NCBI GenBank assembly: GCA_016212295.1
Contig: JACRGO010000063.1
Location: forward strand, 1 to 38,804
Direction of reading: 5' to 3'
DNA from: Nitrospinota bacterium
GTDB lineage: Bacteria > Nitrospinota > Nitrospinia > JACRGO01
Length of the DNA: 38,804 bases
Every line of letters starts with the position of its first letter. Position 1 is the first letter of the stretch. Position numbers and translations under genes: made by a program. The notes below the pieces were generated by a model. It searched no databases. It saw only the letters and a program-made list of their open reading frames with translations, and was not told the origin of the DNA. Below, in pieces: positions 8,462 through 31,286 of the stretch.

Positions 8462-8482
8462 ACGCCGCTCGCTTTGCGGCCC

Positions 8483-8520
8483 ATGAAATTGATAACTAAT
8501 GGAAGGATATGTTAGATTTA
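8483..8520 (+). promoter_or_regulatory. Second copy of the promoter-like block, upstream of wzm
   Basis: TTGATA (8489-8494) and TAGATT (8513-8518) are spaced 18 bases apart, as in the copy at 7212-7250. The copy lies between the GT4 stop and the MITE-like element, about 230 bases before the Wzm start. It may be a promoter or only a dispersed repeat. Confidence 0.35.
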
Positions 8521-8579
8521 AAAATTCCGCAACTAATCTATCAAGATATTTTAAATTTCAGATTTCAGATTGGAATAAT

Positions 8580-8726: not shown

Positions 8727-8753
8727 AAATATCACTGCTACGAGAAATAGCCC

Positions 8754-10881: not shown

Positions 10882-10917
10882 TTCAGCGGTTCCATAATGG
10901 AAAGAATAAGGATTTAA

Positions 10918-11002
10918 ATCAGCCACGAACGAACACGAATTTTCACGAATCTTTAAAAACTATTTCCTTTTAATTCGCGTCCATTAGTGTAAATTCGTGG
11001 TT
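10918..11002. repeat. Inverted dispersed repeat, CACGAA family
   Basis: The left arm, about 10920-10950 (AGCCACGAACGAACACGAAT), is the approximate reverse complement of 10972-11002 (CGTCCATTAGTGTAAATTCG, then TGG). It lies between the Wzt stop and the antitoxin-like gene and carries no gene. Confidence 0.6.
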
Positions 11003-11026
11003 AAAATAATTGAAAAGGAGGTATTT

Positions 11027-11266
11027 ATGTATACGATCTATCGAATAAATGCTAACAAGCTGGATAATGGTTTCGTAAAAGCCTTGAAAGAGATGTTCAA
11101 AAATAAGGAAATCGAAATAGCGGTATGTGAAACTTCTGAAATTGAGGAGGACGAAACCGCGTATTTATTGAAGTCACCCGCCAATCACGGGCGTTTGTTG
11201 AAAGCGATAAAGAATGTTGCCCATAATCGCAATCTTGTTGCGGTAAATTTAGACGAGTTGGAGTGA
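11027..11266 (+). CDS. Orphan antitoxin-like small protein
   Basis: 79 residues from ATG 11027, preceded by a near-perfect ribosome site AAAGGAGGT (11013-11021), better than the GTG at 10997. The N-terminal half (YRINANKLDNGFVKALKEMF, then KEIEIAV) and the C-terminal DETAYLLKSPANHGRLLKAI match the pattern of small type II antitoxins of the Phd/YefM/RelB-like groups. I recognise the pattern, not a named family. No RelE- or PIN-like toxin ORF lies on either side: the next 235 bases are a palindromic repeat and then the sulfatase-like gene. It may be a solitary antitoxin, a relic, or partner to a toxin elsewhere. Confidence 0.7.
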   Translation: MYTIYRINANKLDNGFVKALKEMFKNKEIEIAVCETSEIEEDETAYLLKSPANHGRLLKAIKNVAHNRNLVAVNLDELE

Positions 11267-11301
11267 AACATTTATGAACTAACGTTCACAAAGGAGAATG
11301 G

Positions 11302-11397
11302 AAATCCCCCCTGCCCCCCTTTTCCAAAGGGGTAATTTTCCAGTCTCTTTTTTTTAAGAGTAATTCCCCCTTTGCAAAAGGGGGGCAGGGGGGATTT
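11302..11397. repeat. Palindromic repeat, CCCCCTT/AAGGGGG family, copy 1
   Basis: The left arm (11303-11334) and right arm (11361-11397) are near-perfect inverted copies (AATCCCCCCTGCCCCCCTTT against its complement), separated by about 26 bases containing a T8 run. Related copies are at 18283-18402, 33064-33138 and 33306-33433. As RNA it would form a very stable hairpin and may act as a terminator after the antitoxin-like gene. Confidence 0.8.
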
Positions 11398-11512
11398 GAA
11401 AAAGATTTTCAGGTGAAAAAATTGGCTTTGAAGGGAACGTTACCGTTATTTCTTGTAAATATCATTACGAATAAGAGTTATAATACTTCCTTGCTCCCAT
11501 TTGAAAAAAACA

Positions 11513-13357: not shown

Positions 13358-14808
13358 ACAACATGCCGGCAAATCAAACAATGTTCACAAAAAACCGTTT
13401 TTTCATGCTTTTACTCTTGATCTTGGCTGCCTTATCGGCAATGCCGTTTGGCCGTCCAATGTCTGGAGCCCAAGAGCAAGGGAATATTAAGGATTACAAC
13501 GTCATCCTCCTTACGATAGACGCCTTGCGGGCGGACCATTTGGGGTGCTATGGATACAAACGGAACACCAGCCCCAATATCGATAAATTCGCGGCCAATG
13601 GGGTCCTTTTTGAAAACACAGTGGCGCAAATTCCCAAGACGGGGCCATCGGTTTCCTCCATCATGACCTCTCAATACATGCAATCCGCCGGAGTCTACCG
13701 TAACGGTGAAAAACTAAGCAGGAAGAAAAAAACCATAGCTGAAAGATTATTCGACCGTTCCTATTTCACCGCCGCCTTTTTAACGAATGCCAATTTGATC
13801 TATGGCTCCGGCCACGAACAAGGTTTTGTCTTATTCAATAATTACCACACCGCCCCGGCGGAAAAGGTTTTGGAAGGCGCGGTGGACTGGCTGGAGGGAA
13901 ACCGTTTTAAAAAGTTCTTTTTGTGGATTCACCTGCTTGACCCGCACGGCCCTTATACTCCGCCGAAAAAATACCGCTCCATGTTCGTGGACGACCCCTT
14001 TTACAACGGGACAAAAACAGCGGCCACTGAATACAAAACCGGTTCCGGCAACAATTCCGAGTATATTCTTGGGGCAATTCCAAAATACCAACTCATCAAT
14101 GGAATAAATAAGGTCGATTACTACATCGCCCAGTACGATTCTGAAATCTTTTATATGGATGAAGCCCTCCGTTCCCTGTTTGAAACCATTGAAAACCTGG
14201 GTCTGCAAAAAAATTCCATAATCATAATCGGGGCCGACCACGGGGAAAGCATGGGGGAGCATGATTACTATTTCGAGCACGGCATGTTCGTTTACCAGGG
14301 TAACGTTAATATTCCCCTCATCATTAAATATCCTGGTGGACCTCAAGGCAAACGCATTCCCCAAATCGTGCAGAATATAGATATCGTCCCAACATTGCTT
14401 GATGTTCTTGGCATCAACGAAAGAGAGAAATGGTGGAAAAAAATTTTCAGCCGGCAAGACAGGATAGAGGGAAAAAGCCTTATGCCTCTTATTAAGGGAG
14501 AAACTCGCGAGGAAAATTTCGCTGTCAGCGAAACGCCGTACGAATATGACGACCATAAATCAGTGATGGTTCAAAAGGGCTCCTGGAAATTCATCATGAA
14601 CTCCGACAAAACCGATGAATTGTACAATTTAGCCGAAGACCCTGATGAAAAAAATAATCAGGCGGAAAAACATCCGGAACTGGTGAAAGAGCTTCGAGGC
14701 CACATCCGCGGCATTCCCAAAGCCGCCAAAAGGAAGGGGCCGGAAGAGAATATCCAGTTCGGTGAAAAGGAGAAGGAAGAACTTAAGGCCCTGGGGTATT
14801 TGCAATGA
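13354..14808 (+). CDS. Exported sulfatase-like enzyme with Thr nucleophile position
   Basis: 484 residues with an N-terminal hydrophobic signal segment (residues 15-37, possible cleavage after SGA). The alkaline-phosphatase-superfamily domain starts directly: ILLTIDALRADHLGCYGY with metal ligand D56, then IPKTGPSVSSIMTS with Thr96 in the nucleophile position. The metal-binding ADHGESMGEH follows near residue 295. It is a paralogue of the preceding gene without that gene's N-terminal beta-sandwich. It shares the terminal motif (ALGYLQ) and starts inside the upstream stop codon (ATGA), as the next gene does with it, so the three are surely co-translated. Likely role: removal or transfer of phosphate- or sulfate-linked groups on an envelope glycan; substrate unknown. 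Confidence 0.88.
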   Translation: MNNMPANQTMFTKNRFFMLLLLILAALSAMPFGRPMSGAQEQGNIKDYNVILLTIDALRADHLGCYGYKRNTSPNIDKFAANGVLFENTVAQIPKTGPSVSSIMTSQYMQSAGVYRNGEKLSRKKKTIAERLFDRSYFTAAFLTNANLIYGSGHEQGFVLFNNYHTAPAEKVLEGAVDWLEGNRFKKFFLWIHLLDPHGPYTPPKKYRSMFVDDPFYNGTKTAATEYKTGSGNNSEYILGAIPKYQLINGINKVDYYIAQYDSEIFYMDEALRSLFETIENLGLQKNSIIIIGADHGESMGEHDYYFEHGMFVYQGNVNIPLIIKYPGGPQGKRIPQIVQNIDIVPTLLDVLGINEREKWWKKIFSRQDRIEGKSLMPLIKGETREENFAVSETPYEYDDHKSVMVQKGSWKFIMNSDKTDELYNLAEDPDEKNNQAEKHPELVKELRGHIRGIPKAAKRKGPEENIQFGEKEKEELKALGYLQ

Positions 14809-16862
14809 TGATAAAACTTTTTCAATCCGCTCTTTTTAAATTTCTTCTCCTCGCCGGCATGATGCTTGGAGTTTGTTCTTTCATGGGGGATTATTGCCTT
14901 TATAAGGGAAAATCTTATTATTACAAGGCGAGGTACCTCATTTCCGCCGATAAAGGCCCAGTGTCCCTGTTGGGTCCCACGGTCCAAGGGAAAAAAATGG
15001 TTTCCGGCTACCTGCATCCCCTGGACTGCAGAAAGGTTTTTCTGGGAAAGGACTGGGACCTTGAAAAAGGCATCAATGGCAGGAAATACACGGCATGGGC
15101 GCTGGGAAATAGGTCGACTATTTTTTTTCATGAAGAGAGAAAAAACGATTTCCTTCTTAATATAGGATTTTCTTCTTACAACTCAAAAAAATATCGGACT
15201 GAAACTGTTGATATTGCTCTAAACGGATATCCCTTGAGGAGCATCACCCTCGATCCGGAATGGGAAAGCTGGCAGATAGTATTGCCATCCGCTCAAATCC
15301 AGGATGGCGCAAATCAAATCGATTTTCAATTTCATCATGTTATTCAGCCGAACCAGGACGCCCCTGAATCCGTGGAGTCCCGCCCATTATCGGCGGCCAT
15401 CGACCTCTCCACGCTGGAAATCCTGCCGCTTTTTCCAGAAAAATCAGAGGTCCCTTATCTGGAAGTCTCAGACAAACATCCGGTACTTCATATTACTACC
15501 CTGGAAAAATCCCAGGAGCGCGGCGGGATGATAAAAATTTTTCTCAATGATGGGTTTGTTTGCGGCCTGCCATTGGTTTCCGGGAAACACAGTTATCCTT
15601 TGACTCTCCCTGATGGTTTGGTTAAAAAAGATGGGAAAAACATTTTTACTTTTCAATATCCCGCCAAGGAATCCGATAAATTAAAGGCAAACAACCAAGA
15701 CAGTATTGCTCTGGTTGGGATTTCCGGCGTCGGCATTAACATTACGAAACCGGTAATGGAGGCGCCTCCAAAATATATAATTGATACAAAATACCTCCCA
15801 TTCCGGGCCTTCCCGTATACGCTGGGAAAAGGGTGGAGCGACAAGGACAAATGGCCGACCATAGAAATATCCTGGGCTTTAGGTAAGGAAGCATCCATCC
15901 GAATTCCCACCGCTTCTTCAAAGGGATTTATGCTAGAAATGGAGCTTCTTCCCTTTGTATATCCCGGAGCGCCGATTCAATCTGTGGATTTTTCTCTGAA
16001 CGGCCATACGATTGGCTCCACTAAACTATCATCCGATTGGAAACGGATTGAACTCCCCCTCCCCTCTCATTGGTTAAAACAAGAAGATAATGAAGTAAAA
16101 CTCCTTATGGGTTATTCCGCCTCGCCGAAAGACGTAATAGCGGGGAGCACGAACACCTGTCAACTTTCTGTAGCGATCAATTTAAATAGTTTTTTTATTT
16201 ATAGCCCGGAGGACTTGGCCATGGAAGACACGCCACACTCTTTCCTGAATTTCAATCTTAATATAAACAAAAAGCTTTCCAAAAAGGGAAACATCTGCGC
16301 GAAAAATTACCTCCCGAAAAAAAATAAAACCCAATCCCCTGGCGCTTCGCAGGAAAAGGTGGGAATAATAATGGAAAAAAAGGTGCTCCCCATGGATAAT
16401 CATATTTGTCCTGATGCGGACGCGAATGCCTTCAGGCTTATGGAATACAAAATATTAAGAAAGGAACGGCCCAAAAAGCCATGGGAAGATGGAAGAATTC
16501 TCATTGCCCCCGCTCCATCCATGATGGAATACAAGGCCGCCCTGGCAAAGAGGAGACCTTACCTGCGGTTCGCGATTGGTTTGTTAGGAAACGACCACCA
16601 CCAATATCATTATTTCCCGGAAGAGGATGAAACGGAATTTATTATTGAATTAGAGGACTGGAAACACGACACCCACTTGCTATATTCGAAAGGCTTTCCA
16701 CTGGAGCAAAATTCGGATAACATGGAGTGGCGGGTGGAGGAATTGGACCTTTCGGCCTTCGCATGGCAGGATGTCACTATTCGCTTCAGGACAATGGAGA
16801 AAAATGCCAGCAATGGCAAAAACAACACGGCATGGATGGAGCCTGTAATCATTTCTAAATAG
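14805..16862 (+). CDS. Large exported multi-beta-sandwich protein, function unknown
   Basis: 685 residues with an N-terminal hydrophobic anchor or signal (about 8-26). Residues 80-210 and 340-467 are an obvious internal duplication. Both run 'LGK-W ... WALG ... beta strands ... VD-LNG ... S-LPS', matching TVDIALNGYPLRSITLDPEW to QSVDFSLNGHTIGSTKLSSD, and then end in AAIDLSTLEIL or VAINLNSFFI. Residues 215-320 look like a more divergent third module. The last 115 residues form a fourth beta-rich domain ending AWMEPVIIS, like the N-terminal domain of the lipoprotein at 11513. The folds suggest carbohydrate binding outside the inner membrane. It overlaps the upstream gene by ATGA, so it probably works with the sulfatase-like enzymes as a glycan-binding partner. 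No catalytic motif seen. Confidence 0.8.
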   Translation: MMIKLFQSALFKFLLLAGMMLGVCSFMGDYCLYKGKSYYYKARYLISADKGPVSLLGPTVQGKKMVSGYLHPLDCRKVFLGKDWDLEKGINGRKYTAWALGNRSTIFFHEERKNDFLLNIGFSSYNSKKYRTETVDIALNGYPLRSITLDPEWESWQIVLPSAQIQDGANQIDFQFHHVIQPNQDAPESVESRPLSAAIDLSTLEILPLFPEKSEVPYLEVSDKHPVLHITTLEKSQERGGMIKIFLNDGFVCGLPLVSGKHSYPLTLPDGLVKKDGKNIFTFQYPAKESDKLKANNQDSIALVGISGVGINITKPVMEAPPKYIIDTKYLPFRAFPYTLGKGWSDKDKWPTIEISWALGKEASIRIPTASSKGFMLEMELLPFVYPGAPIQSVDFSLNGHTIGSTKLSSDWKRIELPLPSHWLKQEDNEVKLLMGYSASPKDVIAGSTNTCQLSVAINLNSFFIYSPEDLAMEDTPHSFLNFNLNINKKLSKKGNICAKNYLPKKNKTQSPGASQEKVGIIMEKKVLPMDNHICPDADANAFRLMEYKILRKERPKKPWEDGRILIAPAPSMMEYKAALAKRRPYLRFAIGLLGNDHHQYHYFPEEDETEFIIELEDWKHDTHLLYSKGFPLEQNSDNMEWRVEELDLSAFAWQDVTIRFRTMEKNASNGKNNTAWMEPVIISK

Positions 16863-16895
16863 TTGTTGCTGTAATTTTTTCCCTTTTAAAAAATC

Positions 16896-18134
16896 ATGGA
16901 AAAACATCTTTTGGAGCAGCCCTTCGATAAATTCCAGAGATATATTTCCATTAAGGAAATTATCGAAACAATTGAAGCCGAGGAAGGACCGGCAAGGGAT
17001 TCCAGTTTCCTTGACGTTGGAGGATATCCCGGCGACATCACCGCTTTTTTGCCAGGCCGCAGGATTTTTTTTCTGGATACGATACAGGACCGCATACCTG
17101 ATTATATACGGGGAAACGCTGCCAGCCTTCCCTTTAAAAACGGCTCCATGGATATCGTTATCTGTTCGGATATGCTCGAACACCTTCCGCCGCCAATCAG
17201 GCCCTTGGTCTTAGATGAAATGGCCAGGGTGGGCAAGGGGTGGATACTTGTGGGCTGTCCCATAAAGCTGGAGGAAATTGAATGTTCGGAAAAGATAGTG
17301 GGAAATTTCCATAAGGCGCTCCTATCCAAGGAACACCCGTGGCTCAAGGAGCATTCTCATCTCGGTTTGCCGCGGGAAGAATTTCTCCATGAATATTTCT
17401 CTAAAAAGGGGTTGGCCTGCCTGGACATTCCCAATGGCAACTTATTGAATTGGCTCTTTATGATGTTAGTTAATGAATACATCAATTCCATCCCAGAAAA
17501 TCAATATGCGGCTAAAGCCATTAATCATTATTTCAACCTGCAGTTCAGTCACACCAATCGCCAGGTCCCCGTTTACCGCTATATCCACGCCATCCACCCG
17601 GAGGCGGAGAAAGTCCGTAATCTAAAGGAAAATTTATTAAAAAAAGAGACGCCGCCACCCTCCACTTTTAACATACTTTCCTTTTTAAAATCCCTTGAGC
17701 CGGAAAAACTCGCATCGGACATTTCCACCAAGAGGGACCTTTATGAAGACGGGTTAAGAAAGGAGTTGGGGGAAACAAGGCTGCATATAAAAAGCCTTGA
17801 GTGCGCGGGGATGGAAAAGGAAAACCACATCAGTAACCTGAGAATAATGATGGAAGAAAAGCAAAGGGCTTTATTGCTCCTGATTGAGGAAAACAATAAC
17901 AAGCAAAACGCCATTCTGGAACTGGGCAGGGAAAACCAAAAGAAACAAACGGCGATAATGGAACTCCAAGGATCTAACAATGAAAAACAGGCCGCCATTG
18001 AAAATTTACAGGCTGCAATTAATGAAAAACAGGCTGCAATTGAAAATTTGCAAGAATATATAAAGCAAAACGTTTGGAAGGACCGCCTGAAAGAAACCAG
18101 ATTTTATAAACATTTTTTCGGTTCAACTGAATAG
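16896..18134 (+). CDS. SAM-dependent methyltransferase with C-terminal coiled coil (WbdD-like chain-terminator candidate)
   Basis: 412 residues. The methyltransferase fold occupies about 1-240: motif I SFLDVGGYPGDITAF (residues 37-51), an acidic residue after the next strand (FFLDTIQ), and VICSDMLEHL of the methyltransferase-11 type. A long charged coiled coil follows from about 275 to 392, including four tandem 14-residue repeats (331-386), then an amphipathic tail (WKDRLKETRFYKHFFGSTE). In E. coli O9a, WbdD caps the polymer end by methylation/phosphorylation, and its coiled coil sets chain length while its tail binds the polymerase. The architecture and the neighbouring Wzm/Wzt with recognition domain support this analogy, but no kinase domain is present. 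It starts 33 bases after the beta-sandwich gene. Confidence 0.85.
   Translation: MEKHLLEQPFDKFQRYISIKEIIETIEAEEGPARDSSFLDVGGYPGDITAFLPGRRIFFLDTIQDRIPDYIRGNAASLPFKNGSMDIVICSDMLEHLPPPIRPLVLDEMARVGKGWILVGCPIKLEEIECSEKIVGNFHKALLSKEHPWLKEHSHLGLPREEFLHEYFSKKGLACLDIPNGNLLNWLFMMLVNEYINSIPENQYAAKAINHYFNLQFSHTNRQVPVYRYIHAIHPEAEKVRNLKENLLKKETPPPSTFNILSFLKSLEPEKLASDISTKRDLYEDGLRKELGETRLHIKSLECAGMEKENHISNLRIMMEEKQRALLLLIEENNNKQNAILELGRENQKKQTAIMELQGSNNEKQAAIENLQAAINEKQAAIENLQEYIKQNVWKDRLKETRFYKHFFGSTE
17886..18053 (+). repeat. Four tandem 42-base units inside the coiled coil
   Basis: Four 14-residue units in phase encode EENNNKQNAILELG, RENQKKQTAIMELQ, GSNNEKQAAIENLQ and AAINEKQAAIENLQ. The last two are nearly identical in DNA (AATGAAAAACAGGC...). 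In-frame gain or loss of a unit would lengthen or shorten the coiled coil by two heptads. Confidence 0.85.
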
Positions 18135-18137
18135 GTT

Positions 18138-18207
18138 CATAGCGCGGCATGGCTTAGAAAACTTGCGTGTAAAACACAAATTACTGAATTTAATAATATA
18201 AAAAATC
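18138..18207. repeat. Dispersed repeat CATAGCGCGGCATGGC + AT-rich block
   Basis: CATAGCGCGGCATGGC (18138-18153) recurs exactly at 35457-35472. The AT-rich block after it (18171-18207, ending TTTAATAATATAAAA) resembles 35557-35590 just before the SGNH gene and, in reverse, 38595-38625 upstream of the acetyltransferase. The 18135-18477 gap holds this repeat and the palindrome at 18283-18402, and no gene. Confidence 0.6.
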
Positions 18208-18282
18208 ATGTAACTATTTAGTGCGTTTTTATTTTTTGTTATCCTTAAAACTGAATTTTTATAATTAAAGGGAGCCTGCGGT

Positions 18283-18402
18283 CTTTTTACATCCCCCTGG
18301 CCCCCTTTTCCAAGGGGGAATCAGGCGATGTCTGGGAACATACCGAGATGGACGGCACAACCCATTCCCCCTTAACAAAGGGGGATTAAGGGGGATGTAA
18401 AG
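18283..18402. repeat. Palindromic repeat, CCCCCTT/AAGGGGG family, copy 2
   Basis: The left arm is 18283-18322 (TACATCCCCCTGGCCCCCTT) and the inverted right arm 18364-18401 (AAGGGGGATTAAGGGGGATG), separated by about 40 bases. It lies between the methyltransferase and the glycosyltransferase at 18478, so it may partly terminate the upstream transcript. Confidence 0.8.
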
Positions 18403-18477
18403 ATGCATTTAACGGCGACTATCGGGGTTATGTAATATTTCGCTGAATAGTTACAAATTATTTTAAAAAGGATTTAC

Positions 18478-20805
18478 ATGGACCTGAAAATAGCAATCGT
18501 TTGCGAGCGCATGTTACTGGGTTTCGGCGCGGATTTAGTATATCACAAGTTAGCGGAAGGACTTCATAGGAAAGGCTGCCGTGTGACCGTTTTTACAACG
18601 CGGTCTGACGGCACTTACGAAAACAGCGGGTATAAAATTTCCCTGCTCCCGGTCCCGGCTGACGCCAATTTTCCAGCCTACGAAAAAAATGCCTCTAGAT
18701 TTCTCCATTTCCTGATAGCCCAGGGGTTTGACCTTTTTATTCTTGGCACTTTCCCCTTTTATTCATACGCGCAAATTCTATCAAAGCATGCGCCCTGCAT
18801 CGCGGTGGACCTTGGGATTTGTTCCACCGATGGCATGCCTGCTTCCGTGAAAAAGAATTTTGACTATATGCGGAAAACCCAATATGGGAAATATTTTAAT
18901 TTTGTTGAAAAAATCCTTACCATATCGGAATATCTGAAAAAACTTATGCCAGCGCATCTTAAGGAAAAAACAAAGGCCCTGCACCTCGGGGTTGACCACT
19001 ACGGTCCCAACGCACCGGAGGATATAGAGAAATTCAGAAATAGCCTCGGCGTTTCCGGTGATGAGGTATTGCTCCTCTATGTCGGGCGGCTCAACCCAAA
19101 GGCCCAGCCCTATAAAGGAACCGCTCAATTAGTGGGAATTTATAAAAAATTAAAAGAAAGACATTCTAATGTAAAATTGATCATGGCAGGCTTCGGGGAT
19201 GAAAACGATGAAAATTTCATCCGCTCTGAGGGGATTATTCCAATGCTTAGCGTTCCGGTAAAATCAATGCCTGCCCTGTACGGCGCCTGCGATATTTATG
19301 TCACGGCTTCCTGTTGGGAAGGATTTGATCTTCCACTTCTGGAGGCCCAATATTTTGGAAAACCAGGAGTCGCCCTGAAAATAGGGGCGCACCCTGAAGT
19401 TGCAAGGGAAGGAGAAACTTCATTCTTGGCCGAAAATACAGAAGAAATGGTGGAAAAACTGGATATCCTCATACGCGACAAGGACAAAAGAGTGGAGATG
19501 GGAGAAAAGGGAGGGCTTTGGGCGAAAAATTTCAAGTGGGATGAAAAGATCAACCAATATGTGGAAGCCATTGTGGAGACCGCCAACTGCTTTAAAAAAG
19601 AAGAAACTAAAGGCGTCCAACCGAAGGTGACGGCGCTCGTCTTGAATTACAACGCCGATTTTGAAATCCTTGAGGAATGCATACTGACACTGAAGTCCCA
19701 GACCTATAAAAACCTGGAAATTCTCATTGTGGACAACAATTCCACAAACGGTTCCCTGGAACATATACAAAAGAAATTCGAGGGCTTGAGGATACTCAAA
19801 CTGGACCAAAACCATGGTTTTTCCGTTGGAAATAACAGAGGCATAGAAGCCTCTGAAGGCGAGTTTATTTTCATATTGAATTTCGATGTTAAATTACATC
19901 CAGAAGCCGCGGAGGAACTTGTTAAGGTCATTCAGACGGACGGCAAAATCATTGCCGTGGCCCCCAAGATGCTCTTGTACAGGGACCCTGAAATCATCGA
20001 CTGCATCGGGAACCTGCTTACGCCCGCGGGCGACGCCTTTAACATGGGGATCGGCCAGATAGATATAGGACAGTATGATGTCAGCGAAAGAGTTTTCGGG
20101 GCTTGCTTCGGTGCGGCCTTAGTGCGAAAAAGCGGGTTCAAGGAGGACGCTGTGGGCGCCTTGGAGGAACGGTTTTTTATGTACTATGAGGACGTGGATT
20201 GGAATTACCGGGCCAACGCCTTGGGATATAAAATAGTGACGGCCCCCAAGGCAGTTGTATACCATCACCACTCAGCCGCCACGAAAAAATTCAGTTATGA
20301 CATGAAATATGAGCTAATCCAACTCAATTTATTGCGCACGGTCTTCCAGAATGTTCAGGGAAGAAAAGTAGTCACAAAGCTGATCATGGCCAGATTGAAA
20401 AATCACGTAATAAGTGTTTTGAGGAAGCAGTACAGGAAGGCTTCCTTGAAAGTCCTGTGGAAATTTTTATTGGATATTCCTGATTGCGTAAAAAAGAGAA
20501 ATGAGCTGAAAAAGAGAAGGGTCGTCAACGATGTGGATATTTTTAAATACAGTTATGGCGAAATCCCATTTTTCGACCCGGTGGCCTATTCCCCAATAAT
20601 ATCCCTCGACACATTGGAGTTCATGTATTCCCGGAAATGCCTTGTCGATGCTGACCCCAAATACCAGGGAATTTTAAATTATCTCAGGCTGATTAAACTC
20701 AATAAACTCCGATTCGAGCGAGAAGTATCCCGTTCCAGGCTGGAAGAGTTTTTCGTTGATGAACCAGAAAGAATCAAGACCTTTTGCAAAGAAATTAACT
20801 GGTGA
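18478..20805 (+). CDS. Fused glycosyltransferase: GT4 domain plus GT2 rhamnosyltransferase-type domain
   Basis: 775 residues. Residues 1-375 are GT4-like (GT-B): KIAIVCERMLLGFGADLVYH, sugar-nucleotide loop VGRLNPKAQPYKG and E-x7-E in CWEGFDLPLLEAQ. Residues 380-650 are GT2 (GT-A): VTALVLNYNADFEILEECIL, IVDNNSTNGS, LNFDVKLHPEA in the DxD position, and YYEDVDWNYR with the catalytic-base Asp typical of rhamnosyltransferase-like enzymes. The remaining C-terminus is helical. Two domains in one chain suggest two successive additions or a polymerase of repeat units. The stop overlaps a GTG start of the next gene. ATG 18478 has an AAAAAGGAT site 6 bases upstream. Confidence 0.9.
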   Translation: MDLKIAIVCERMLLGFGADLVYHKLAEGLHRKGCRVTVFTTRSDGTYENSGYKISLLPVPADANFPAYEKNASRFLHFLIAQGFDLFILGTFPFYSYAQILSKHAPCIAVDLGICSTDGMPASVKKNFDYMRKTQYGKYFNFVEKILTISEYLKKLMPAHLKEKTKALHLGVDHYGPNAPEDIEKFRNSLGVSGDEVLLLYVGRLNPKAQPYKGTAQLVGIYKKLKERHSNVKLIMAGFGDENDENFIRSEGIIPMLSVPVKSMPALYGACDIYVTASCWEGFDLPLLEAQYFGKPGVALKIGAHPEVAREGETSFLAENTEEMVEKLDILIRDKDKRVEMGEKGGLWAKNFKWDEKINQYVEAIVETANCFKKEETKGVQPKVTALVLNYNADFEILEECILTLKSQTYKNLEILIVDNNSTNGSLEHIQKKFEGLRILKLDQNHGFSVGNNRGIEASEGEFIFILNFDVKLHPEAAEELVKVIQTDGKIIAVAPKMLLYRDPEIIDCIGNLLTPAGDAFNMGIGQIDIGQYDVSERVFGACFGAALVRKSGFKEDAVGALEERFFMYYEDVDWNYRANALGYKIVTAPKAVVYHHHSAATKKFSYDMKYELIQLNLLRTVFQNVQGRKVVTKLIMARLKNHVISVLRKQYRKASLKVLWKFLLDIPDCVKKRNELKKRRVVNDVDIFKYSYGEIPFFDPVAYSPIISLDTLEFMYSRKCLVDADPKYQGILNYLRLIKLNKLRFEREVSRSRLEEFFVDEPERIKTFCKEINW

Positions 20806-22481
20806 TCGTCAGGCTAAAAATTTTTCTCAGACGCTTTCGATTTCTTTTTTATTTGAACCATCGAATTCTGCGCCCATGCGCCAGGCGTATTGCCGCCTTT
20901 CCTTTTCTTCGTTACCAGGTATTCATTTTAAAAAACGAAAAAAAAACGCCTTCCGTTGAGACACCCTTTGCTGAAAAAAGGTTTTCCATTATTTTGTCAA
21001 TCGGAAAAAACACATCCTCGAACGAGCTATTCGCCACACTTTCCTCCATCAAGAAATGCAATTATTCTAATTTGGAACTCTGGACGCCCAAATCAGCCGT
21101 TCATAACGCCAGGAAGATTTTGCCGCAAGAGTCTGTCTCGGAAATTCCGGGACCTGAAGAAACTAAAATCACCTTGGATGGGATCTCAGGAGATTATTTT
21201 TTTTTCATGGATGCCGGAGACCAGCTCGCGAAAAATTTTTTTCACATCTTTTCCAGGGAGTTGTCCGCGCCGGACCCTCCAGCCATTCTCTATTCTGATG
21301 AGGATAAAATCAATTCCAGCGGCATCCGCTTTAATCCTTATTTCAAGCCTGATTTTTCACCATGCCTGCTGGAATCATGGAACTACATGGGAAGGGCCGT
21401 CCTTTATAAAGCTTCGTTGGCAAGAGAAGCCCTTCCGGAAGATGCCGGCGGGATAGATGTCGAATATTATTTGAACTTAAGCCTTGGCCGTAAAGCGAGG
21501 GTAAAACGAATTTCCAGGGTCCTATATCATAGGAAGGCATCACATGCTCATTGCCCCTTTGAGCCCTCCAGCGAAGGAGAAGCAGATGCTATAGGGCATT
21601 TCGTTAGAACAATTTATCCAGAAGCCAGAATTGGTAAAGGTCTCCTGCCCGGGACCTTCAGATTGGTGCCTTCCCTCAAAGAGGCGGGAAGGGTATCAGT
21701 TGTCGTGCCCAATAAGAATAATCTGCCCGGTCTAAGGAAGTGCCTTGCTTCCCTTCGCAAGCAAGACTGGAGGGACATGGAGATTATAATAGCCGATAAT
21801 GAAACGGACGACCCAAGGGCGCTGGAATTTTTAAGGAACTTCCAGGATACCAATAAAAAGGTCGTCTCCGTTCCTGGAAAATTCAATTTCTCCAGATCCT
21901 GCAACATGGGAGCGGAACTAGCGCAAGGTGACTTTCTGCTTTTCCTCAATAACGACGTGGAGTTTATTTCATCAGGCTCCCTCTCCGCCATGCTGGAATA
22001 CTCGCGCAGGGAAGAGGTCGGCGCTGTTGGAGCAAAATTATTTTTCCCGGACAAAACGATACAACATGTGGGAATCATGACAGGGCTTCAGGCCCCTTGC
22101 GTCCACCCTTATTACGCCTCACCGGGAAATGAGCCTGGATATTTCGGAAGGAACATGATCCCATGCGAGGTTTCAGCCGTGACTGCGGCATGTTTAATGA
22201 TCCGGAAAAAACTTTTTGGTGAAGTTGGCGGTTTCGATGAGGCATTCAGGGTAGCGTACAACGATGTGGATTTATGCCTGAGACTACGAAAGAAAGGACG
22301 CCGGATTATTTATACCCCTTACGCCTGTCTTTTTCACGAGGAAAGTTCCACGAGAGGGTTCGCCGTGGACAAACAAGAAGAAATTCTTTTAAAGACGAAG
22401 TGGGAAGGCCAATTAGATGACCCCTACTACTCGCCTAACATGAGCAGAAAGCCGCTTTTCTTTTTGCCCAGGGTGGATTAA
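20802..22481 (+). CDS. Tandem GT2 glycosyltransferase, N-terminal domain degenerate
   Basis: 559 residues from a GTG overlapping the upstream TGA (GTGA), implying coupling with the 18478 gene. The C-terminal GT2 domain (about 285-530) looks active: RVSVVVPNKNNLPGLRKCL, IIIADNETDD, LLFLNNDVEFIS and AYNDVDLCLRLRKKG. The N-terminal region (60-280) has the same fold remnants (FSIILSIGKNTSSNELF, YFFFMDAGDQ, ILYSDEDKI) but lacks the canonical nucleotide-binding sequence. This arrangement resembles large O-antigen/rhamnan GT2 proteins with a paired domain. Basic N-terminal helices (residues 1-40) could mediate membrane association. It is the last gene of the polysaccharide block. Confidence 0.9.
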   Translation: MIVRLKIFLRRFRFLFYLNHRILRPCARRIAAFPFLRYQVFILKNEKKTPSVETPFAEKRFSIILSIGKNTSSNELFATLSSIKKCNYSNLELWTPKSAVHNARKILPQESVSEIPGPEETKITLDGISGDYFFFMDAGDQLAKNFFHIFSRELSAPDPPAILYSDEDKINSSGIRFNPYFKPDFSPCLLESWNYMGRAVLYKASLAREALPEDAGGIDVEYYLNLSLGRKARVKRISRVLYHRKASHAHCPFEPSSEGEADAIGHFVRTIYPEARIGKGLLPGTFRLVPSLKEAGRVSVVVPNKNNLPGLRKCLASLRKQDWRDMEIIIADNETDDPRALEFLRNFQDTNKKVVSVPGKFNFSRSCNMGAELAQGDFLLFLNNDVEFISSGSLSAMLEYSRREEVGAVGAKLFFPDKTIQHVGIMTGLQAPCVHPYYASPGNEPGYFGRNMIPCEVSAVTAACLMIRKKLFGEVGGFDEAFRVAYNDVDLCLRLRKKGRRIIYTPYACLFHEESSTRGFAVDKQEEILLKTKWEGQLDDPYYSPNMSRKPLFFLPRVD

Positions 22482-23709: not shown

Positions 23710-25914
23710 TCAAAGAAAATCCGGATGCCCTGCCTTTATCATTCGGAGCAAGGCTATGTTCTCCCTATGCCCGGTCATTCTCGCGGTGATTTTCCCCCTC
23801 ACCGGCCTACCCAAAAGATATATATCGCCTAAAATATCCAAAATCTTGTGCCGGACAAATTCATCGGGAAATCGAAGAGCTGTATTGAGCACCTTCCCAT
23901 CGTCCAGCAAAATAAGGTTGCTTAATCTTCCTCCGCTGGCCAATCCCATCTCTTCCAGCTTTCCATAATCCTTCAGAAATCCAAAGGTCCTGGCCGGCGC
24001 GATCTCATTTTTGAAATATTCCTTTCCGGCGGACTCGAACAAAAACTCCTGGCGTCCAATGGGAGCGGGATATTCCAGGGTGTAGTGAATGGAAAGGGAT
24101 TCAGCGGGTCCTATGGAAATGGATTTTCCATTCGTTTCAGCGAAGGCCGCCTCGTAAACCTTATCGATAACCAACTCCTCGCAAAAGACGTCTTGTTCCT
24201 CAAGGCCGCCATCTTCCACAAGGCCGCAAAAATCGCTCGCGGACCCGTCCATTATCGGGACCTCGTCCCCCATCTTTATAAGAAGATTGTTGATCCTGTA
24301 CATGTGGAGAACGGCGAGGATATGTTCAATGGTGCGAACCACCTTTTTCCCCTTGCGAAGGCCGGTGGCGAAATCGGTGGAATCAACGTAATCGAGATGT
24401 GCCCTGATGGTCTCCCCTGTGGATATATCGCAAAAAACTATGCCGCTGTCAGGGGGAAGCGGTGAAAGGATAAGCCCGGTTTTTATTCCTGAATGCAGAC
24501 CCTGCCCGCACAAAACCACGCTCCTCTTCAAGGTTTTTTGCATGGTAAAGGTCTGGCGCTTCAGGGACTCTATGTCCAGACCATACACAGCCAGTTTTTT
24601 TTCCAATCTGTCGGCCGGCAGTCTCATGGCCTTTGCCGCGGCTTTTATATCCCACTGGTTCTTTCTCATGTGATAAAGGAGACTCTCCTTGTCCCACAAA
24701 AAATCAGCATCCTTGATGCGTCTGGACCCATCAGCAGGCTTCGGAAAAAGTTTGGGGGAGCCTTGTCGAATCGGATCAGGAAGGTCATCCGGAGTAATAT
24801 ATTGCTTGGAGCCGTCCGCTATATGAATATTTTCCAAAGCACTCCGCAACTCCTTCACGTTTCCCGGCCAGGAGTGCCTGGTCAAGGTTTCCAGGGTCCC
24901 TTTGCCCAACACCATTGCGGGCCGGGCCTGCGAGTCCTTGTTCCCTTGAGAAAGAAAAAAATTCGCAAGCGGCTCGATGTCCATGTAACGCTCCCTCAAG
25001 GGCGGAACAAAAATTCTTTCGGCGCCGAGGAATTCCATTAACTCGCGGTTGAGGCCGCCTTCCTCGATCTTTCTCTCCCAAGCAGCCGAGAGCACGGCAA
25101 TGATCCTGACCTCATACCCAGGCTCTTTTTTACTTTTGGCCCCGCGGAAGCCATTTTTAAAAGCCTTTAATATGTTTGATTGAACATTGAGCGGGAGCTG
25201 ATCCAATCCATCCAACACAATGGATCCGCCGTTCGCGGCCCCGAATGCCGGAATATTTTCATTGCCCTTCACGCCCGCGCCTAAAAGGACTTTATTCGCC
25301 TGTTTTTTCGGCAGGGAAACACAGTCCACTTTCACGCACGGCCTTCCGGCATTCTGAATCTGGGAACAAAGCAAGCCGGCTATAAGGGATTTCCCGGTCC
25401 CCTCTTCTCCGGTTATTGTTATATGTTTCTCATCCGGCCAAAGGGTCTTTAATTGTTCACGTATCCTGTTCGCGCTTTCCGAGGTCCCAATGAATTGATC
25501 AATTTTACCGCGCACGGATTCCTCCCTGGCCCCCTCCACCTGCTTTTTCCTTCTTTCCATGGCCAGTTTCACCATAAGAAGCACGCCTTCAAGGGAAAGG
25601 GGCTTTTCAATGAAATCAAAGGCGCCCAACTTCGTCGCCTGGACAGCGGTGTCGATGCTGCCGTGGCCGGACATCATGATGAATTCGGCCTCCACGCCTG
25701 TCCTTTTCGCCGATTTCAAGACCTCTATCCCGTCCATTCCTGGCAGCCATATATCCAGCAAAACCAAATCCGGGTGGTCGGACTCGATAATGTTCAGGGC
25801 CGTTTCCCCTTCATCCACTGTGACCACGTCATATCCGTCATCATGAAGTATCCCTTCCAGGGAACTCAAGATATTTTCCTCGTCGTCGACCACTAAAACC
25901 AAGCCCTTTGACAC
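23710..25914 (-). CDS. lpxC: Receiver - AAA+ - HTH - LpxC fusion (NtrX-like regulator fused to UDP-3-O-acyl-GlcNAc deacetylase)
   Basis: 734 residues from GTG 25914 with a CAGGAG ribosome site six bases upstream. Residues 1-120 form a receiver with acidic pocket D10/D11, phosphoacceptor D54, S82 and K104, and an NtrX-like GAFDFIEKPLSL. Residues 140-380 form an AAA+ domain with Walker A GEEGTGKS (169-176) and arginine-finger-type LRER (307-310), but no GAFTGA loop (LGAGVKGNENIPAFG instead), and Walker B IVLDG lacks the usual DE. Residues 405-447 are a Fis-like HTH. From about 458 a full LpxC follows, with catalytic E530 and zinc ligands H531, H689 and D693, plus H716. LpxC performs the first committed step of lipid A synthesis. 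The fusion suggests phosphorylation-linked control of the enzyme. Confidence 0.93.
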   Translation of the reverse strand: MSKGLVLVVDDEENILSSLEGILHDDGYDVVTVDEGETALNIIESDHPDLVLLDIWLPGMDGIEVLKSAKRTGVEAEFIMMSGHGSIDTAVQATKLGAFDFIEKPLSLEGVLLMVKLAMERRKKQVEGAREESVRGKIDQFIGTSESANRIREQLKTLWPDEKHITITGEEGTGKSLIAGLLCSQIQNAGRPCVKVDCVSLPKKQANKVLLGAGVKGNENIPAFGAANGGSIVLDGLDQLPLNVQSNILKAFKNGFRGAKSKKEPGYEVRIIAVLSAAWERKIEEGGLNRELMEFLGAERIFVPPLRERYMDIEPLANFFLSQGNKDSQARPAMVLGKGTLETLTRHSWPGNVKELRSALENIHIADGSKQYITPDDLPDPIRQGSPKLFPKPADGSRRIKDADFLWDKESLLYHMRKNQWDIKAAAKAMRLPADRLEKKLAVYGLDIESLKRQTFTMQKTLKRSVVLCGQGLHSGIKTGLILSPLPPDSGIVFCDISTGETIRAHLDYVDSTDFATGLRKGKKVVRTIEHILAVLHMYRINNLLIKMGDEVPIMDGSASDFCGLVEDGGLEEQDVFCEELVIDKVYEAAFAETNGKSISIGPAESLSIHYTLEYPAPIGRQEFLFESAGKEYFKNEIAPARTFGFLKDYGKLEEMGLASGGRLSNLILLDDGKVLNTALRFPDEFVRHKILDILGDIYLLGRPVRGKITARMTGHRENIALLRMIKAGHPDFL

Positions 25915-25974
25915 ATCGTGCTCCTGATTAACTGTATAGAAATTTTAAAATTTTCTTTAAAAAATCAACGAAAT

Positions 25975-26038
25975 TGCAGTGCGAGTGACTAAAGTGAACT
26001 AAAGTTTAAAGTGGCTAAAGTTCACTTTACACTTTAGT
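25975..26038. repeat. Short direct/inverted repeat of CTAAAGT words
   Basis: CTAAAGTGAACTAAAGT (25989-26005) and CTAAAGTTCACTTTA (26015-26029) are mixed direct and inverted words between the LpxC fusion and the beta-propeller gene. The origin is unknown. Confidence 0.5.
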
Positions 26039-27185
26039 CATTGGAGGACACCACTAACTTTGCTATCTTGTTCGCGTTCCTGTCGCTTTCCGTGAACCAT
26101 ATATTCCCGTCCTTGTCTAGTACCATTTGCATGGGCTGGGAATTAGTCGTGGGAATGCCCCATTCATCAAATCTTGCCGTGTTCGGATCAAAATATCCGA
26201 TCTGGTTCCTCATGCTGTCCACGTACCACACCCTGCCCTTGGCGTCCAAGGCGATGTCCTGCGGGACGCTGTTATATCCCGGTATAAGGGCAAAGCTCAT
26301 TTGCCCCGTTTTTGGTTCCAGCATTCCTATTTTACGCGCCTTGGCAAGGACAAACCATGGACGCCCTTGCTGGTCCAGGACAATGGCCTGGGGCTGGGAA
26401 ACATTCTCATAAACAGGGAATCTCTTCATTTTGCCCTCCGAGGGCTTGAACAAGCCCAGGGAATTGTCCGCTATGTCAGTGACCCAAATCCCTCCACTAT
26501 CATCCGCTGCAATGGAAGAGAGCCTGTGGTTTCCACCGGGAAAGGAATATTCAATAACCTTCTTAACCGAAAAATCCAGTTTCCCTATCTTGTTCGCGTT
26601 CCTTTCGACAAACCAGATATTATTGTTTTTGTCCGAGACCAGGGAATAAGGCTGGCTGTCGGAGGTGGGGATTTGGTACTCAATGAATTTTTCTGTTTTC
26701 GGATCAAACATCCCAAGGCTGTTTCCAAGTATCTGGACAAACCAAACCCGGTCCTCCGGGTCCACGATCAACTCCCCAGGGCTTCCCACTGAAAAGATAT
26801 TGTAGGTGTCTTCCGGTTTCGGGGTCTCCTTATTAACAGGATCATATTTCCAATCGCTCTTGGGAAGGGCGGCGGCGGAGGGGATATCAAATTCTTTTAT
26901 CTGGCCGGTTTTAGGGTCCAGGTAGCCGATGAGATTCGCGGCCTGGGCGCTGTACCAAATCCTGCCTTGGGAATCTATGTCTATGCCATAAGGCAGACAA
27001 TTTTTCCTGGGCAGAACATATTCATGAATTTTAGGGGCTCCAGACGCCACGCCGACGTTGGCGGCCGGGGCATGAGAGTGCATATCATCCCCGGCAAGGA
27101 CCACAAAGGCTTGAAAAAATAAAAAATAAATGCAAAGCAATTCTGAGATAAGAGTTAATCCCATTATTTTTTTTCGATATGCCAT
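26034..27185 (-). CDS. Exported Vgb-like (virginiamycin B lyase family) beta-propeller
   Basis: 383 residues from ATG 27185. That start places a hydrophobic signal segment (IMGLTLISELLCIYFLFFQA) at the N-terminus; the longer ATG at 27233 would bury it behind 16 residues and has no ribosome site. Seven repeats of about 40-45 residues share the pattern 'I-WF--...NKIGK-D--T----E--IP', the blade motif of Vgb/NHL-type propellers. Vgb opens streptogramin B, but most homologues are periplasmic or secreted proteins of unknown or lactonase-like function, so resistance should not be inferred. A short His-containing region (MHSHAPA) precedes the propeller. It is first of the minus-strand run leading into the LpxC fusion. 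Confidence 0.85.
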   Translation of the reverse strand: MAYRKKIMGLTLISELLCIYFLFFQAFVVLAGDDMHSHAPAANVGVASGAPKIHEYVLPRKNCLPYGIDIDSQGRIWYSAQAANLIGYLDPKTGQIKEFDIPSAAALPKSDWKYDPVNKETPKPEDTYNIFSVGSPGELIVDPEDRVWFVQILGNSLGMFDPKTEKFIEYQIPTSDSQPYSLVSDKNNNIWFVERNANKIGKLDFSVKKVIEYSFPGGNHRLSSIAADDSGGIWVTDIADNSLGLFKPSEGKMKRFPVYENVSQPQAIVLDQQGRPWFVLAKARKIGMLEPKTGQMSFALIPGYNSVPQDIALDAKGRVWYVDSMRNQIGYFDPNTARFDEWGIPTTNSQPMQMVLDKDGNIWFTESDRNANKIAKLVVSSND

Positions 27186-27233
27186 GCCTTGATTTTCCTT
27201 AATATATGCAAGTAGTGCTTGACCGAAAACCAT

Positions 27234-27576: not shown

Positions 27577-29484
27577 TCAAGCCCCCTCCCCCGCCTTGCC
27601 GAACTTCCCTGCCCTAGTCTCACGCTTCGCCAAGCGGATGCCCCCGGCCTTGGCGCCGCGAATGGGGAAGTCGCTTGTCTTAAATGACTCCTGCAACACG
27701 CGCAGGCGCGGCTTGGGCTTGTAGTTCAACATTATGCTTTCTTCCGATTCCGTGGTAAGGTCCAGGAGCACGCAGTCCTCCGGAATAAGCGAATAACCCT
27801 TGTTCAAAATATATTTTTCGATGTTGCAGCGCTTGATATAAGGATAACCAGTCTTCCTGTCCCTGTAGAGGACGTTATACACCCGCTCCTTTTCCACGAA
27901 CCCGCAGAAGCGCATCCCGGTGTCCACGAAAAGCTTCTCCTCCACGTCAACCACGGAATAATCCCCGTTCTTCCTGATGACCAGGACCCGGTCATAGGGC
28001 GAGACCTCCAGGACCACGTTCCCGTTCACCTTGGTGCCGAGATACCCCATCTCCCTGTCATAGCGGAGCTTCATATCCCGCTTGGCCGCCTCCCTCACGC
28101 TTACTTTTTCAAAGGAGATGATCTCGGTCTTCCTCGGATACTGAGGACCGTATTTTTTCACAAGCCCCTTCAGGAAATCAATGGCATACCCTGTCAGGTT
28201 CGCCAGGCATGACTTGATGACCTTCAGCCGGTCGAGCATTTCCTTCATTTCCTTTTTCGCCTTGTTGATGTCGTAGAGCGAAATCTTTCGGATGGGTATT
28301 TTCAGCAGGGTTTCCACGTCCTCCACGGTGACTTCCCTCTTTATATCACTGGCGAAGGCGGCAAGGCCGTCCAGAACGGCCTGGACGATCTTTTCAGGAG
28401 TGTCCATCTTTTCGATGGCCTTGTACACGCGGTTTTCTATGAAGATCTGCTCAAGGGTCAGGGCGTGAAGCCTGTTGTTCAGATGGCCTCTTTCAAGAAT
28501 AAGCTCCTTTTCAAGGATGCCTACAAGACGTTCGGTGTTGTGTCTGATAACCGAAGTCGCGGTCATGGTCCTTGGCTTCTCGTCCATGATGACCATCAGG
28601 TTGGCATGGATTGTTGATTCGCATTCAGTGAAGGCGTGCAGGGCGTCAACCGTCTCCTCTGCATGAACGCCCCTGGCCAGTTTCACCTCTATCTCCACTT
28701 GGTCCGAGGTGAAGTCGCTGATGCCGGAAATCTTGATGGTCCCCTTTTTCGCCGCGGCTTCGATTGAGGCAATGAGGCTCTCAGTGCTGGAGCCGAAGGG
28801 GATTTCGCGTATCAATATCCTCTTGGGGTCCGTAACGTCCAGCCTGGCCCGCACGCGCACCTTGCCGTTCCCGCCGTTGTATTCCGACGCGTCCATTATG
28901 CCGCCTGTTGGGAAGTCGGGGTAGATGCTGAACTCCCTGCCCTCCAGGCAGGCTATCTGCGCCTCCATAAGTTCAATTAGATTATGCGGCAGGATTTTCG
29001 TGGCCATGCCCACCGCGATGCCCTCGGTCCCAAGGGCCAGCAGTACCGGGATTTTTGCCGGGAAGACCACCGGCTCGCGGTTCCTGCTGTCGTATGAATC
29101 CTCGAATTGCGTGAGCTCCGGATTGTACAGGGTCTCCTTGGCCATTGGGGTGACGCGGCATTCTATATAACGAGCGGCCGAGGGAGGATCGCCTGTGAAG
29201 ATATTGCCGAAGTTCCCCTGCTTGTCTATGAACATGTCCTTGTTTGCCAGCACGACAAGGGCGGAGTAGATGGAGGCGTCTCCGTGTGGATGGTACTTCA
29301 TGCAATGTCCAACCACGTTTGCAACCTTGTTGAATTTTCCGTCGTCCATCTCGAACATGGAGTGGAGGATCCTACGCTGCACGGGCTTCAGGCCGTCGTC
29401 TATGTGAGGAATGGCTCGGTCCTTGATGACGTAGGAGGCGTATTCCAGGAAATTGGTTTTGTACAGGGCGTCTACGTATGCCAT
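27577..29484 (-). CDS. parC: Topoisomerase IV subunit A (ParC-type)
   Basis: 635 residues, the DNA cleavage and rejoining subunit. Early residues carry RAIPHIDDGLKPVQRRIL and the GDASIY box; AARYIECR has catalytic Y106. The C-terminal region after about 480 is short compared with GyrA (about 850) or E. coli ParC (about 750), with no GyrA box seen. It therefore probably lacks a complete DNA-wrapping pinwheel, which fits the Bacteroidetes/Chlamydiae-type ParC. The ATG (29484) lies in the TGATG overlap with the upstream parE, so the two are translationally coupled. Role inferred: decatenation and relaxation of positive supercoils. Confidence 0.94.
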   Translation of the reverse strand: MAYVDALYKTNFLEYASYVIKDRAIPHIDDGLKPVQRRILHSMFEMDDGKFNKVANVVGHCMKYHPHGDASIYSALVVLANKDMFIDKQGNFGNIFTGDPPSAARYIECRVTPMAKETLYNPELTQFEDSYDSRNREPVVFPAKIPVLLALGTEGIAVGMATKILPHNLIELMEAQIACLEGREFSIYPDFPTGGIMDASEYNGGNGKVRVRARLDVTDPKRILIREIPFGSSTESLIASIEAAAKKGTIKISGISDFTSDQVEIEVKLARGVHAEETVDALHAFTECESTIHANLMVIMDEKPRTMTATSVIRHNTERLVGILEKELILERGHLNNRLHALTLEQIFIENRVYKAIEKMDTPEKIVQAVLDGLAAFASDIKREVTVEDVETLLKIPIRKISLYDINKAKKEMKEMLDRLKVIKSCLANLTGYAIDFLKGLVKKYGPQYPRKTEIISFEKVSVREAAKRDMKLRYDREMGYLGTKVNGNVVLEVSPYDRVLVIRKNGDYSVVDVEEKLFVDTGMRFCGFVEKERVYNVLYRDRKTGYPYIKRCNIEKYILNKGYSLIPEDCVLLDLTTESEESIMLNYKPKPRLRVLQESFKTSDFPIRGAKAGGIRLAKRETRAGKFGKAGEGA

Positions 29485-31286
29485 CAGATCAGGTTCTCCA
29501 TTATATAGTCCCGTCGCTCCGGGGTGTTCTTGCCCATGTAGAATTCCAGGGTCTGCGGGACAAGGGCTATGGACTGCACGTTCACCTTGATGAGGCGGAT
29601 GTCCGGGCCTATGAACTGGCCGAATTCCTTGGGCGAGATCTCGCCAAGTCCCTTGAAGCGCGTGATTTCAGGTCCCTTGATTTCCTTAATTGCGCGGTCC
29701 CTCTCCTTTTCGCTGTAGCAATACCTGGTGTCCTTTTTGTTGCGGACCCGGAAGAGAGGCGTCTCCAGTATGTACACATGCCCTGCCACCACAAGCTCCT
29801 CGAAGTAGTTCAGGAAAAAGGTGAGGAGGAGATTTCGTATATGAAAGCCGTCCACGTCCGCGTCGGTCGCTATAACGATCCGGCTATAGCGCAGGTTCTC
29901 TATCCCGTCCTCTATCCCCAGGGCCATCATCATGTTGTACAATTCCTCGTTGGTGTATATCGCGCTCTTGTTCTTACCGTAAACGTTGAGCGGCTTTCCC
30001 TTCAGGGTGAAGATGGCCTGGGTATACACGTCACGCGAGGAGACAATGGAGCCTCCGGCGGACTGGCCTTCGGTAAGGAAGATGGTTGTCTCCTCCCCGC
30101 GTTTCCTGTCGTCGCGGTGGCATTTGCAGTCCTTGAGGTTCGGGATCTTGATCTCGATCCTGCGGGCCGCTTCCTTGGCGTCCTTCTTCACCGCGTTCAG
30201 TTCCTTGCGCAGCCTTTCGTTGTGGATGATCTTTGCTTCAAGCGTCCTGGCCGATTCAGGATATTTGTGGAGGAAGTGCACTACCCCGTCCCTTACCTCG
30301 GTGACGATCCACCCGCGCACGTCCGTGTTGCCGAGCTTGTTCTTGGTCTGCGACTCGAACACGGGCGATATCAGCTTCACAGCCACCGCGCCAGAGATGC
30401 CGTCCCGCACGTCCACGCCGTCAAAATTCTTCTTGAAAAATTCGTTGATCCCCTTGAGAAGCCCTTCGCGGAAGGCGCTCTGGTGTGACCCGCCGTCGCA
30501 GGTGTATTGTCCGTTGACAAAGGAAAAATTGTTCTCTCCGTAACTCGAGGTGTGGGTGAAGGAGAATTCAAGCTGGGCCGACCTGTAATAGGCGGGCTCG
30601 TACAGGGCCGTGTCTCCCACCTCTTTTTTCAGAAAGTCGAGGAGGCCGTTCTTCGACTCAAAGACCTGGTTGTTGAAGATGAGACGCAGGCCCCGGTTGA
30701 GGCAGGCGTAATTCCACAGACGCTGCTCCACGTACTCGAAATTGTAGGCATAATCCGGCCCGAAGATTTCCTTGTCCGGCAGGAACTCCATGATGGTCCC
30801 GTCCTGCTCCCCCTTGGCCGCGCCGCTTCCCTTTTTCTTCAACGTTCCCTGCTCGAAAAAAGCCTCGAAGAATTGGCCGTCCCGGAAGGAGACAACTTTG
30901 AAATGCGAGGAGAGGGCGTTAACCGCCTTGGTCCCGACCCCGTTCAGCCCCACGCTGAATTGGAATACGTCGTCATTGTATTTCGCCCCGGTGTTGATAA
31001 CGGACACGCACTCAACCACCTTGCCGAGAGGGATACCCCGGCCATAATCCCTTACCCTGACCAGGTTTCCCTCAATGGAGATGTCGATCTTTTTTCCGTG
31101 TCCCATGATGAATTCATCCACGGAGTTGTCGATTACTTCCTTGAGGAGGATGTAGATGCCGTCGTCGAAATCGGACCCGGAGCCGAGCCTGCCGATGTAC
31201 ATACCGGTCCTGAGGCGTATATGTTCCAGGGAACTCAGGGTCTTGACCTTGCTTTCGTCATAGACCGGGGTTTGCTTGCTGCTCAT
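29484..31286 (-). CDS. parE: Topoisomerase IV subunit B (ParE-type)
   Basis: 600 residues, ATPase subunit. The N-terminal GHKL fold shows E50/N54 (KEVIDNS), DYGRGIP (80-86) and GLNGVGTK (113-120). TOPRIM follows with TEGQSAGGS (405-413) and TDADVDGFHI (474-483). Most type II topoisomerases have EGDSA; here the Asp is Gln (Q408). This subfamily's wording (HIRLRTGMYIGRLGSGSDFD, LLKEVIDNSVDEFIMGHG) is like Bacteroidetes/Chlamydiae ParE. AAGGAA sits about nine bases before ATG 31286. Downstream parC shares the stop-start overlap. The gene faces a truncated pentapeptide-repeat gene across a repeat-filled gap. Confidence 0.94.
   Translation of the reverse strand: MSSKQTPVYDESKVKTLSSLEHIRLRTGMYIGRLGSGSDFDDGIYILLKEVIDNSVDEFIMGHGKKIDISIEGNLVRVRDYGRGIPLGKVVECVSVINTGAKYNDDVFQFSVGLNGVGTKAVNALSSHFKVVSFRDGQFFEAFFEQGTLKKKGSGAAKGEQDGTIMEFLPDKEIFGPDYAYNFEYVEQRLWNYACLNRGLRLIFNNQVFESKNGLLDFLKKEVGDTALYEPAYYRSAQLEFSFTHTSSYGENNFSFVNGQYTCDGGSHQSAFREGLLKGINEFFKKNFDGVDVRDGISGAVAVKLISPVFESQTKNKLGNTDVRGWIVTEVRDGVVHFLHKYPESARTLEAKIIHNERLRKELNAVKKDAKEAARRIEIKIPNLKDCKCHRDDRKRGEETTIFLTEGQSAGGSIVSSRDVYTQAIFTLKGKPLNVYGKNKSAIYTNEELYNMMMALGIEDGIENLRYSRIVIATDADVDGFHIRNLLLTFFLNYFEELVVAGHVYILETPLFRVRNKKDTRYCYSEKERDRAIKEIKGPEITRFKGLGEISPKEFGQFIGPDIRLIKVNVQSIALVPQTLEFYMGKNTPERRDYIMENLI

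Follow-up and report, generated by a model that had tools for sequence, protein, structure and literature searches.

Why is LpxC, the enzyme that commits the cell to lipid A, encoded in a Nitrospinota genome in one reading frame with a response regulator, and could the receiver of such a protein control the enzyme to which it is joined? The gene lies in the 38,804-nucleotide stretch of DNA analyzed here (the window). In E. coli, LpxC is controlled mainly by FtsH, together with LapB and YejM, and in P. aeruginosa MurA is involved in coordinating LpxC with cell-wall synthesis (PMC12444477, PMC9995270, PMC7240162). Some response regulators have an enzyme as their output (PMC2674652). An earlier note on this DNA had described a single intact frame with an NtrX-like receiver, an AAA+ module, a Fis-like helix-turn-helix (HTH) and a complete LpxC, and had proposed the covalent link as a new mode of control.

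The frame is stop-free over its 734 codons from a GTG start and is preceded by a Shine-Dalgarno-like AGGAG (Table 1). All residues named in the earlier note were found at their positions: D10/D11, D54, S82 and K104 in the receiver and E530, H531, H689, D693 and H716 in the enzyme. The LpxC part scores 255.6 bits against PF03331 (cut-off 27) and 227.8 bits against the lpxC equivalog model TIGR00325 (cut-off 187.25), keeps its catalytic and zinc residues, and aligns over its full length to the solved P. aeruginosa LpxC, the nearest solved structure by sequence; the domain is complete, as had been claimed. In a genome-wide search the fused gene was the sole PF03331 match, with no second LpxC found elsewhere in the window genome, and LpxB is present. 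Being the only LpxC of an LpxB-bearing genome implies that the fused enzyme should be active. The idea that LpxC is also translated on its own, from a start inside the frame, finds no support as a general rule: a Shine-Dalgarno-like internal start was seen in only 4 of 68 distinct fused proteins, by a crude motif scan that detected a Shine-Dalgarno ahead of no more than 19 of the 68 annotated starts. In the window gene, the ATG at residue 458 is not preceded by a Shine-Dalgarno.

Among NCBIfam response-regulator models, NtrX (NF051870) is the best for the N-terminal part, with 251.9 bits over residues 6-440. This score is below the model's cut-off of 600 bits, and unfused ntrX genes adjoining ntrY also fall under that cut-off (501-518 bits). 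The nearest solved REC-AAA-HTH structure for residues 6-444 is PDB 5m7n, tabulated as a nitrogen assimilation regulatory protein, which we take to be Brucella NtrX. The AAA+ module of the earlier note was recovered by Pfam and its Walker A is intact (GEEGTGKS), but the GAFTGA loop and the Walker B glutamate are missing (IVLDG versus the usual FLDE). The Fis-like HTH is visible only through the NtrX model and gave no Pfam match at 1e-3.

Table 1. Features of the fused gene (positions in the window)
Feature	Position	Strand	Basis
Fused gene, 734 aa: receiver / degenerate AAA+ / HTH-like / LpxC	23710..25914	-	frame and Pfam
Shine-Dalgarno-like AGGAG	25921..25925	-	7-11 bases upstream of the GTG start
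Receiver, NtrX type, residues 6-112	25579..25899	-	PF00072 Response_reg, 97.8 bits
D54 codon, predicted phosphorylation site	25753..25755	-	aspartate in all 68 fused proteins
AAA+ module and lid, residues 142-388	24751..25491	-	Pfam Sigma54_activat 142-293, AAA_lid_14 307-388
Fis-like HTH region, residues about 404-450	24565..24705	-	NtrX model to residue 440; helices in predicted model
LpxC domain, complete, residues 459-726	23737..24540	-	PF03331, TIGR00325
E530-H531, catalytic base and zinc ligand of LpxC	24322..24327	-	invariant (alignments A1, A2, A3)
H689, LpxC zinc ligand	23848..23850	-	invariant (alignments A1, A2, A3)
D693, LpxC zinc ligand	23836..23838	-	invariant (alignments A1, A2, A3)
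H716, LpxC catalytic histidine	23767..23769	-	invariant (alignments A1, A2, A3)

The neighboring genes of the window are of several kinds. On the minus strand, a Vgb-like beta-propeller protein is encoded at 26034-27233 (Pfam, 176 bits), and adjacent parC- and parE-like topoisomerase genes, their ends overlapping by one base, lie at 27577-31286 (A subunit, NF007209, 929 bits). The Vgb-like protein reaches 137 bits against resistance-gene cut-offs of 600 and so is probably no streptogramin lyase. Surface polysaccharide genes, glycosyltransferases among them, are found at 6314-22481; an ABC-2 transporter with a Wzt-type ATPase is located at 8754-10881, and two adjacent sulfatase-family proteins at 11501-14808. 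Three frames of 973, 685 and 412 amino acids (3363-6284, 14805-16862 and 16896-18134) had no Pfam match at 1e-8.

The fusion is widespread. LpxC was found in 65 of 77 Nitrospinota genomes, in frames of at least 460 amino acids except for genes cut by a contig end, and a receiver is present in all 41 distinct Nitrospinota loci read; among the LpxC-bearing genomes of the phylum, all those with an uncut gene carry the fusion. One genome of the same genus (G001, 99% complete, 6% contamination) gave no LpxC match, with ntrY partly present, which reflects either loss or an assembly gap. In a second phylum, that of genome G080, 20 of 24 genomes have LpxC, all in long frames, and the intact loci read are fused. 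Of the 39 LpxC genes in the class of Desulfomonile, 17 lie in frames of 698-764 amino acids, and those read are fused; the remaining 22 encode LpxC alone. When the survey was widened to the Desulfomonile phylum, the matches listed, which are the higher-scoring ones, had frames of at most 432 amino acids. Only 2 of 144 Thermodesulfovibrionia are fused, both as receiver-LpxC proteins devoid of AAA+. The earlier note had raised the prospect of a fusion confined to this assembly. Since dozens of independent assemblies carry it, including the single-contig genomes G010, G022 and G067, there is next to no chance that the gene is a chimera or a mis-assembly of two genes. Both the covalent receiver-LpxC link and the affinity to NtrX are borne out. 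All fused LpxCs form one clade on a long stem (SH-aLRT 100 in a quick tree computed without bootstrap); three apparently unfused rows within it proved to be genes cut by contig ends. A single clade agrees with a lone fusion event and later inheritance; Desulfomonile and Thermodesulfovibrionia probably acquired the fusion by transfer.

We then compared the 68 distinct fused proteins domain by domain. The phosphorylation pocket (D11, D54, S82, K104) is invariant in all 68, with D or E at position 10. The GAFTGA motif is missing from every one of them, and most have lost the Walker B glutamate and the arginine fingers. Of the 65 proteins with a residue at the site of the Walker A lysine, 63 retain the lysine, so the AAA+ remnant may still bind nucleotide and may not be a mere scaffold. 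In 45 of 68 proteins little or nothing remains of the HTH region; an HTH-like region is kept in the remaining 23, the window protein included. Six proteins have lost the AAA+ module altogether, five of them being receiver-linker-LpxC proteins that also lack the HTH (L015, L025, L021, L038, L217) and one a receiver-HTH-LpxC protein (L017). These six keep D11, D54, S82 and K104, and they occur in about four places on the LpxC tree; the minimal forms are 426-453 amino acids long. Median dN/dS is 0.053 for the receiver and 0.040 for LpxC, whereas AAA+ and the HTH region have medians of 0.123 and 0.154 (171 non-independent pairs with synonymous sites near saturation, from which only the ranking is used). 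Selection thus maintains the receiver and the enzyme and has relaxed on the transcription machinery between them.

The gene context points to a kinase. In unfused relatives lpxC is followed by ntrY and ntrX, in most cases with a DUF4390 gene between lpxC and ntrY, for example in Desulfuromonadales (L042), Syntrophaceae (L063) and Desulfaltia (L110), and the DUF4390-ntrY pair is found in fused genomes too. In eight fused genomes (G002, G004, G008, G017, G281, G292, G123 and that of L038) the fusion directly follows ntrY and occupies the place of ntrX, with overlapping ntrY and fusion ends in some. The most compact form of the system is the L038 locus, where DUF4390, ntrY and a 429-aa receiver-LpxC gene stand in a row (1212-5287) and the last two overlap by four bases. 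In the window genome (G000) ntrY does not adjoin the fusion, nor does it in Nitrospinaceae; an orphan ntrY of 737 amino acids is present on contig C155 (locus L211, 297-3223), and the roughly 290 bases from there to the contig end contain nothing that resembles a response regulator. A DUF4390-like gene precedes this orphan ntrY, and as DUF4390 accompanies ntrY in fused and unfused genomes alike it may be part of the sensor. The kinase gene is likewise an orphan in the other fused genomes examined, and the orphan NtrY kinases keep the HEIKNP phospho-acceptor motif. With a Syntrophaceae NtrX as query, scores of 435-693 bits were obtained for the NtrX orthologues of unfused genomes, whereas no separate response regulator read from 14 fused genomes exceeded 393 bits (best matches, 319-393). 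Given this clear gap, no separate NtrX was found beside the fusion in the genomes searched.

Taken together, the sequence data make it fairly probable that ntrX was fused to lpxC once, and that NtrY exerts post-translational control over LpxC by phosphorylating the receiver. The fusion would most likely have arisen within, or after, an lpxC-(DUF4390)-ntrY-ntrX operon, its product being a response regulator with LpxC as the output domain. The membrane kinase NtrY would sense the envelope and most likely phosphorylate D54, a step suggested by gene context; the receiver switch would then alter the activity, self-association or turnover of LpxC, as suggested by the receiver-LpxC forms, in which no other output is left. 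The state of the envelope would thereby set lipid A synthesis post-translationally. Both the phosphotransfer to D54 and the post-translational effect on LpxC are inferences. On the same explanation, and to the same degree, the AAA+ and HTH regions are probably remnants of NtrX that serve as linker or scaffold in some lineages and have been deleted in others. Our guess that phosphorylation inhibits LpxC is by analogy with alphaproteobacteria, in which NtrYX represses lpxC transcription. AlphaFold2 folds every domain well (L038, mean pLDDT 84.0, pTM 0.68; window protein, mean pLDDT 88.2, pTM 0.54), and the LpxC fold of L038 matches LpxC of A. aeolicus and P. aeruginosa. The models of these two proteins show no fixed contact between receiver and LpxC and hence no allosteric route, and contact, self-association, location and turnover look alike at this level.

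Three other readings of the receiver were weighed. The earlier note had suggested that the protein could also bind DNA as a moonlighting enzyme; in that case the fusion would still be a transcription factor whose receiver controls DNA binding, with LpxC as a passenger or moonlighting partner. The NtrX model does extend to residue 440, into the HTH-like region of the window protein, one of the 23 that keep this region, and weak DNA binding by this particular protein may occur. A conserved role in DNA binding or sigma-54 activation finds no support, in view of the loss of GAFTGA in all 68 proteins, the decay of Walker B (no DE; IVLDG in the window protein), arginine fingers and HTH, the six AAA+-less proteins that nevertheless keep the pocket, and the evolution of AAA+ and HTH two to three times faster than that of receiver and LpxC. 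We therefore regard a surviving transcription factor as improbable. It is about as improbable, perhaps slightly more so, that the receiver is a mere dimerization or folding module for LpxC with phosphorylation irrelevant. In NtrC-type proteins the helix after the receiver has a dimer role, and the window model shows a long helix (108-139) in the same place; against this stand the strict conservation of D54, S82 and K104 and the retention of NtrY with its phospho-acceptor motif even where no other partner lies beside it.

A phosphorylation-dependent tether, by which the receiver would bring LpxC to membrane NtrY or to a protease and change its location or degradation and not its catalysis, is unlikely but deserves more weight than either of these. 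In E. coli the level of LpxC is the usual point of control (PMC12444477); in the eight C-termini inspected by eye no E. coli-like degron was evident, and the linker of the minimal form (121-150 in L038) is disordered and flexible in the predicted model. The conservation of the pocket would hold equally if the output were localization. No direct support was found for a protease or adaptor, and since a tether needs the same phosphotransfer it is a sub-case of NtrY control, hard to separate from it by sequence.

The preferred reading, a receiver through which NtrY controls LpxC, can be set beside known systems. The fusion shares with NtrX (PDB 5m7n) the receiver type, the AAA+/HTH order and, in eight fused genomes, the place after ntrY; it differs in its C-terminal LpxC and in the loss of GAFTGA, Walker B and often the HTH or all of AAA+. 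With the LpxC deacetylase it shares the full domain, all catalytic and zinc residues and a TIGR00325 score above cut-off, while adding an N-terminal receiver and forming a diverged single clade. Like CheB and the GGDEF regulators (PMC2674652) it combines a receiver with a catalytic output domain, but here the output is an enzyme of lipid A biosynthesis. The LpxC-FabZ fusion (NF009667) also places LpxC in a multi-domain protein; its partner is a C-terminal metabolic enzyme and it has no signaling domain. Loss of NtrYX in Rhodobacter sphaeroides raises lpxC mRNA 8.8-fold and doubles LPS (PMC7240162), and NtrYX likewise represses lpxC in Caulobacter according to a 2025 review (PMC12444477). The same kinase family and the same enzyme are thus linked in both settings, transcriptionally in those bacteria and covalently in the fusion. 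Neither an LpxC-receiver fusion nor a response regulator with LpxC output was found in the literature searched, with subscription journals mostly outside it. Two recent reviews on lipid A and LpxC control gave no match for response-regulator or fusion, and in a text search earlier Nitrospina work noting LPS core genes did not mention the fusion. Regarding the new mode of control proposed at the outset, direct signal control of LpxC is probable; that it amounts to a new mode we infer.

The fusion is in keeping with an evolutionary account of the link between NtrYX and lpxC, and with the minimal forms a single purified enzyme is enough to test the idea. If it is true, the receiver in LpxC would let a sensor kinase act on LPS synthesis directly and at the post-translational level, so that in these bacteria a sensor kinase probably controls outer-membrane synthesis directly and not via gene expression.
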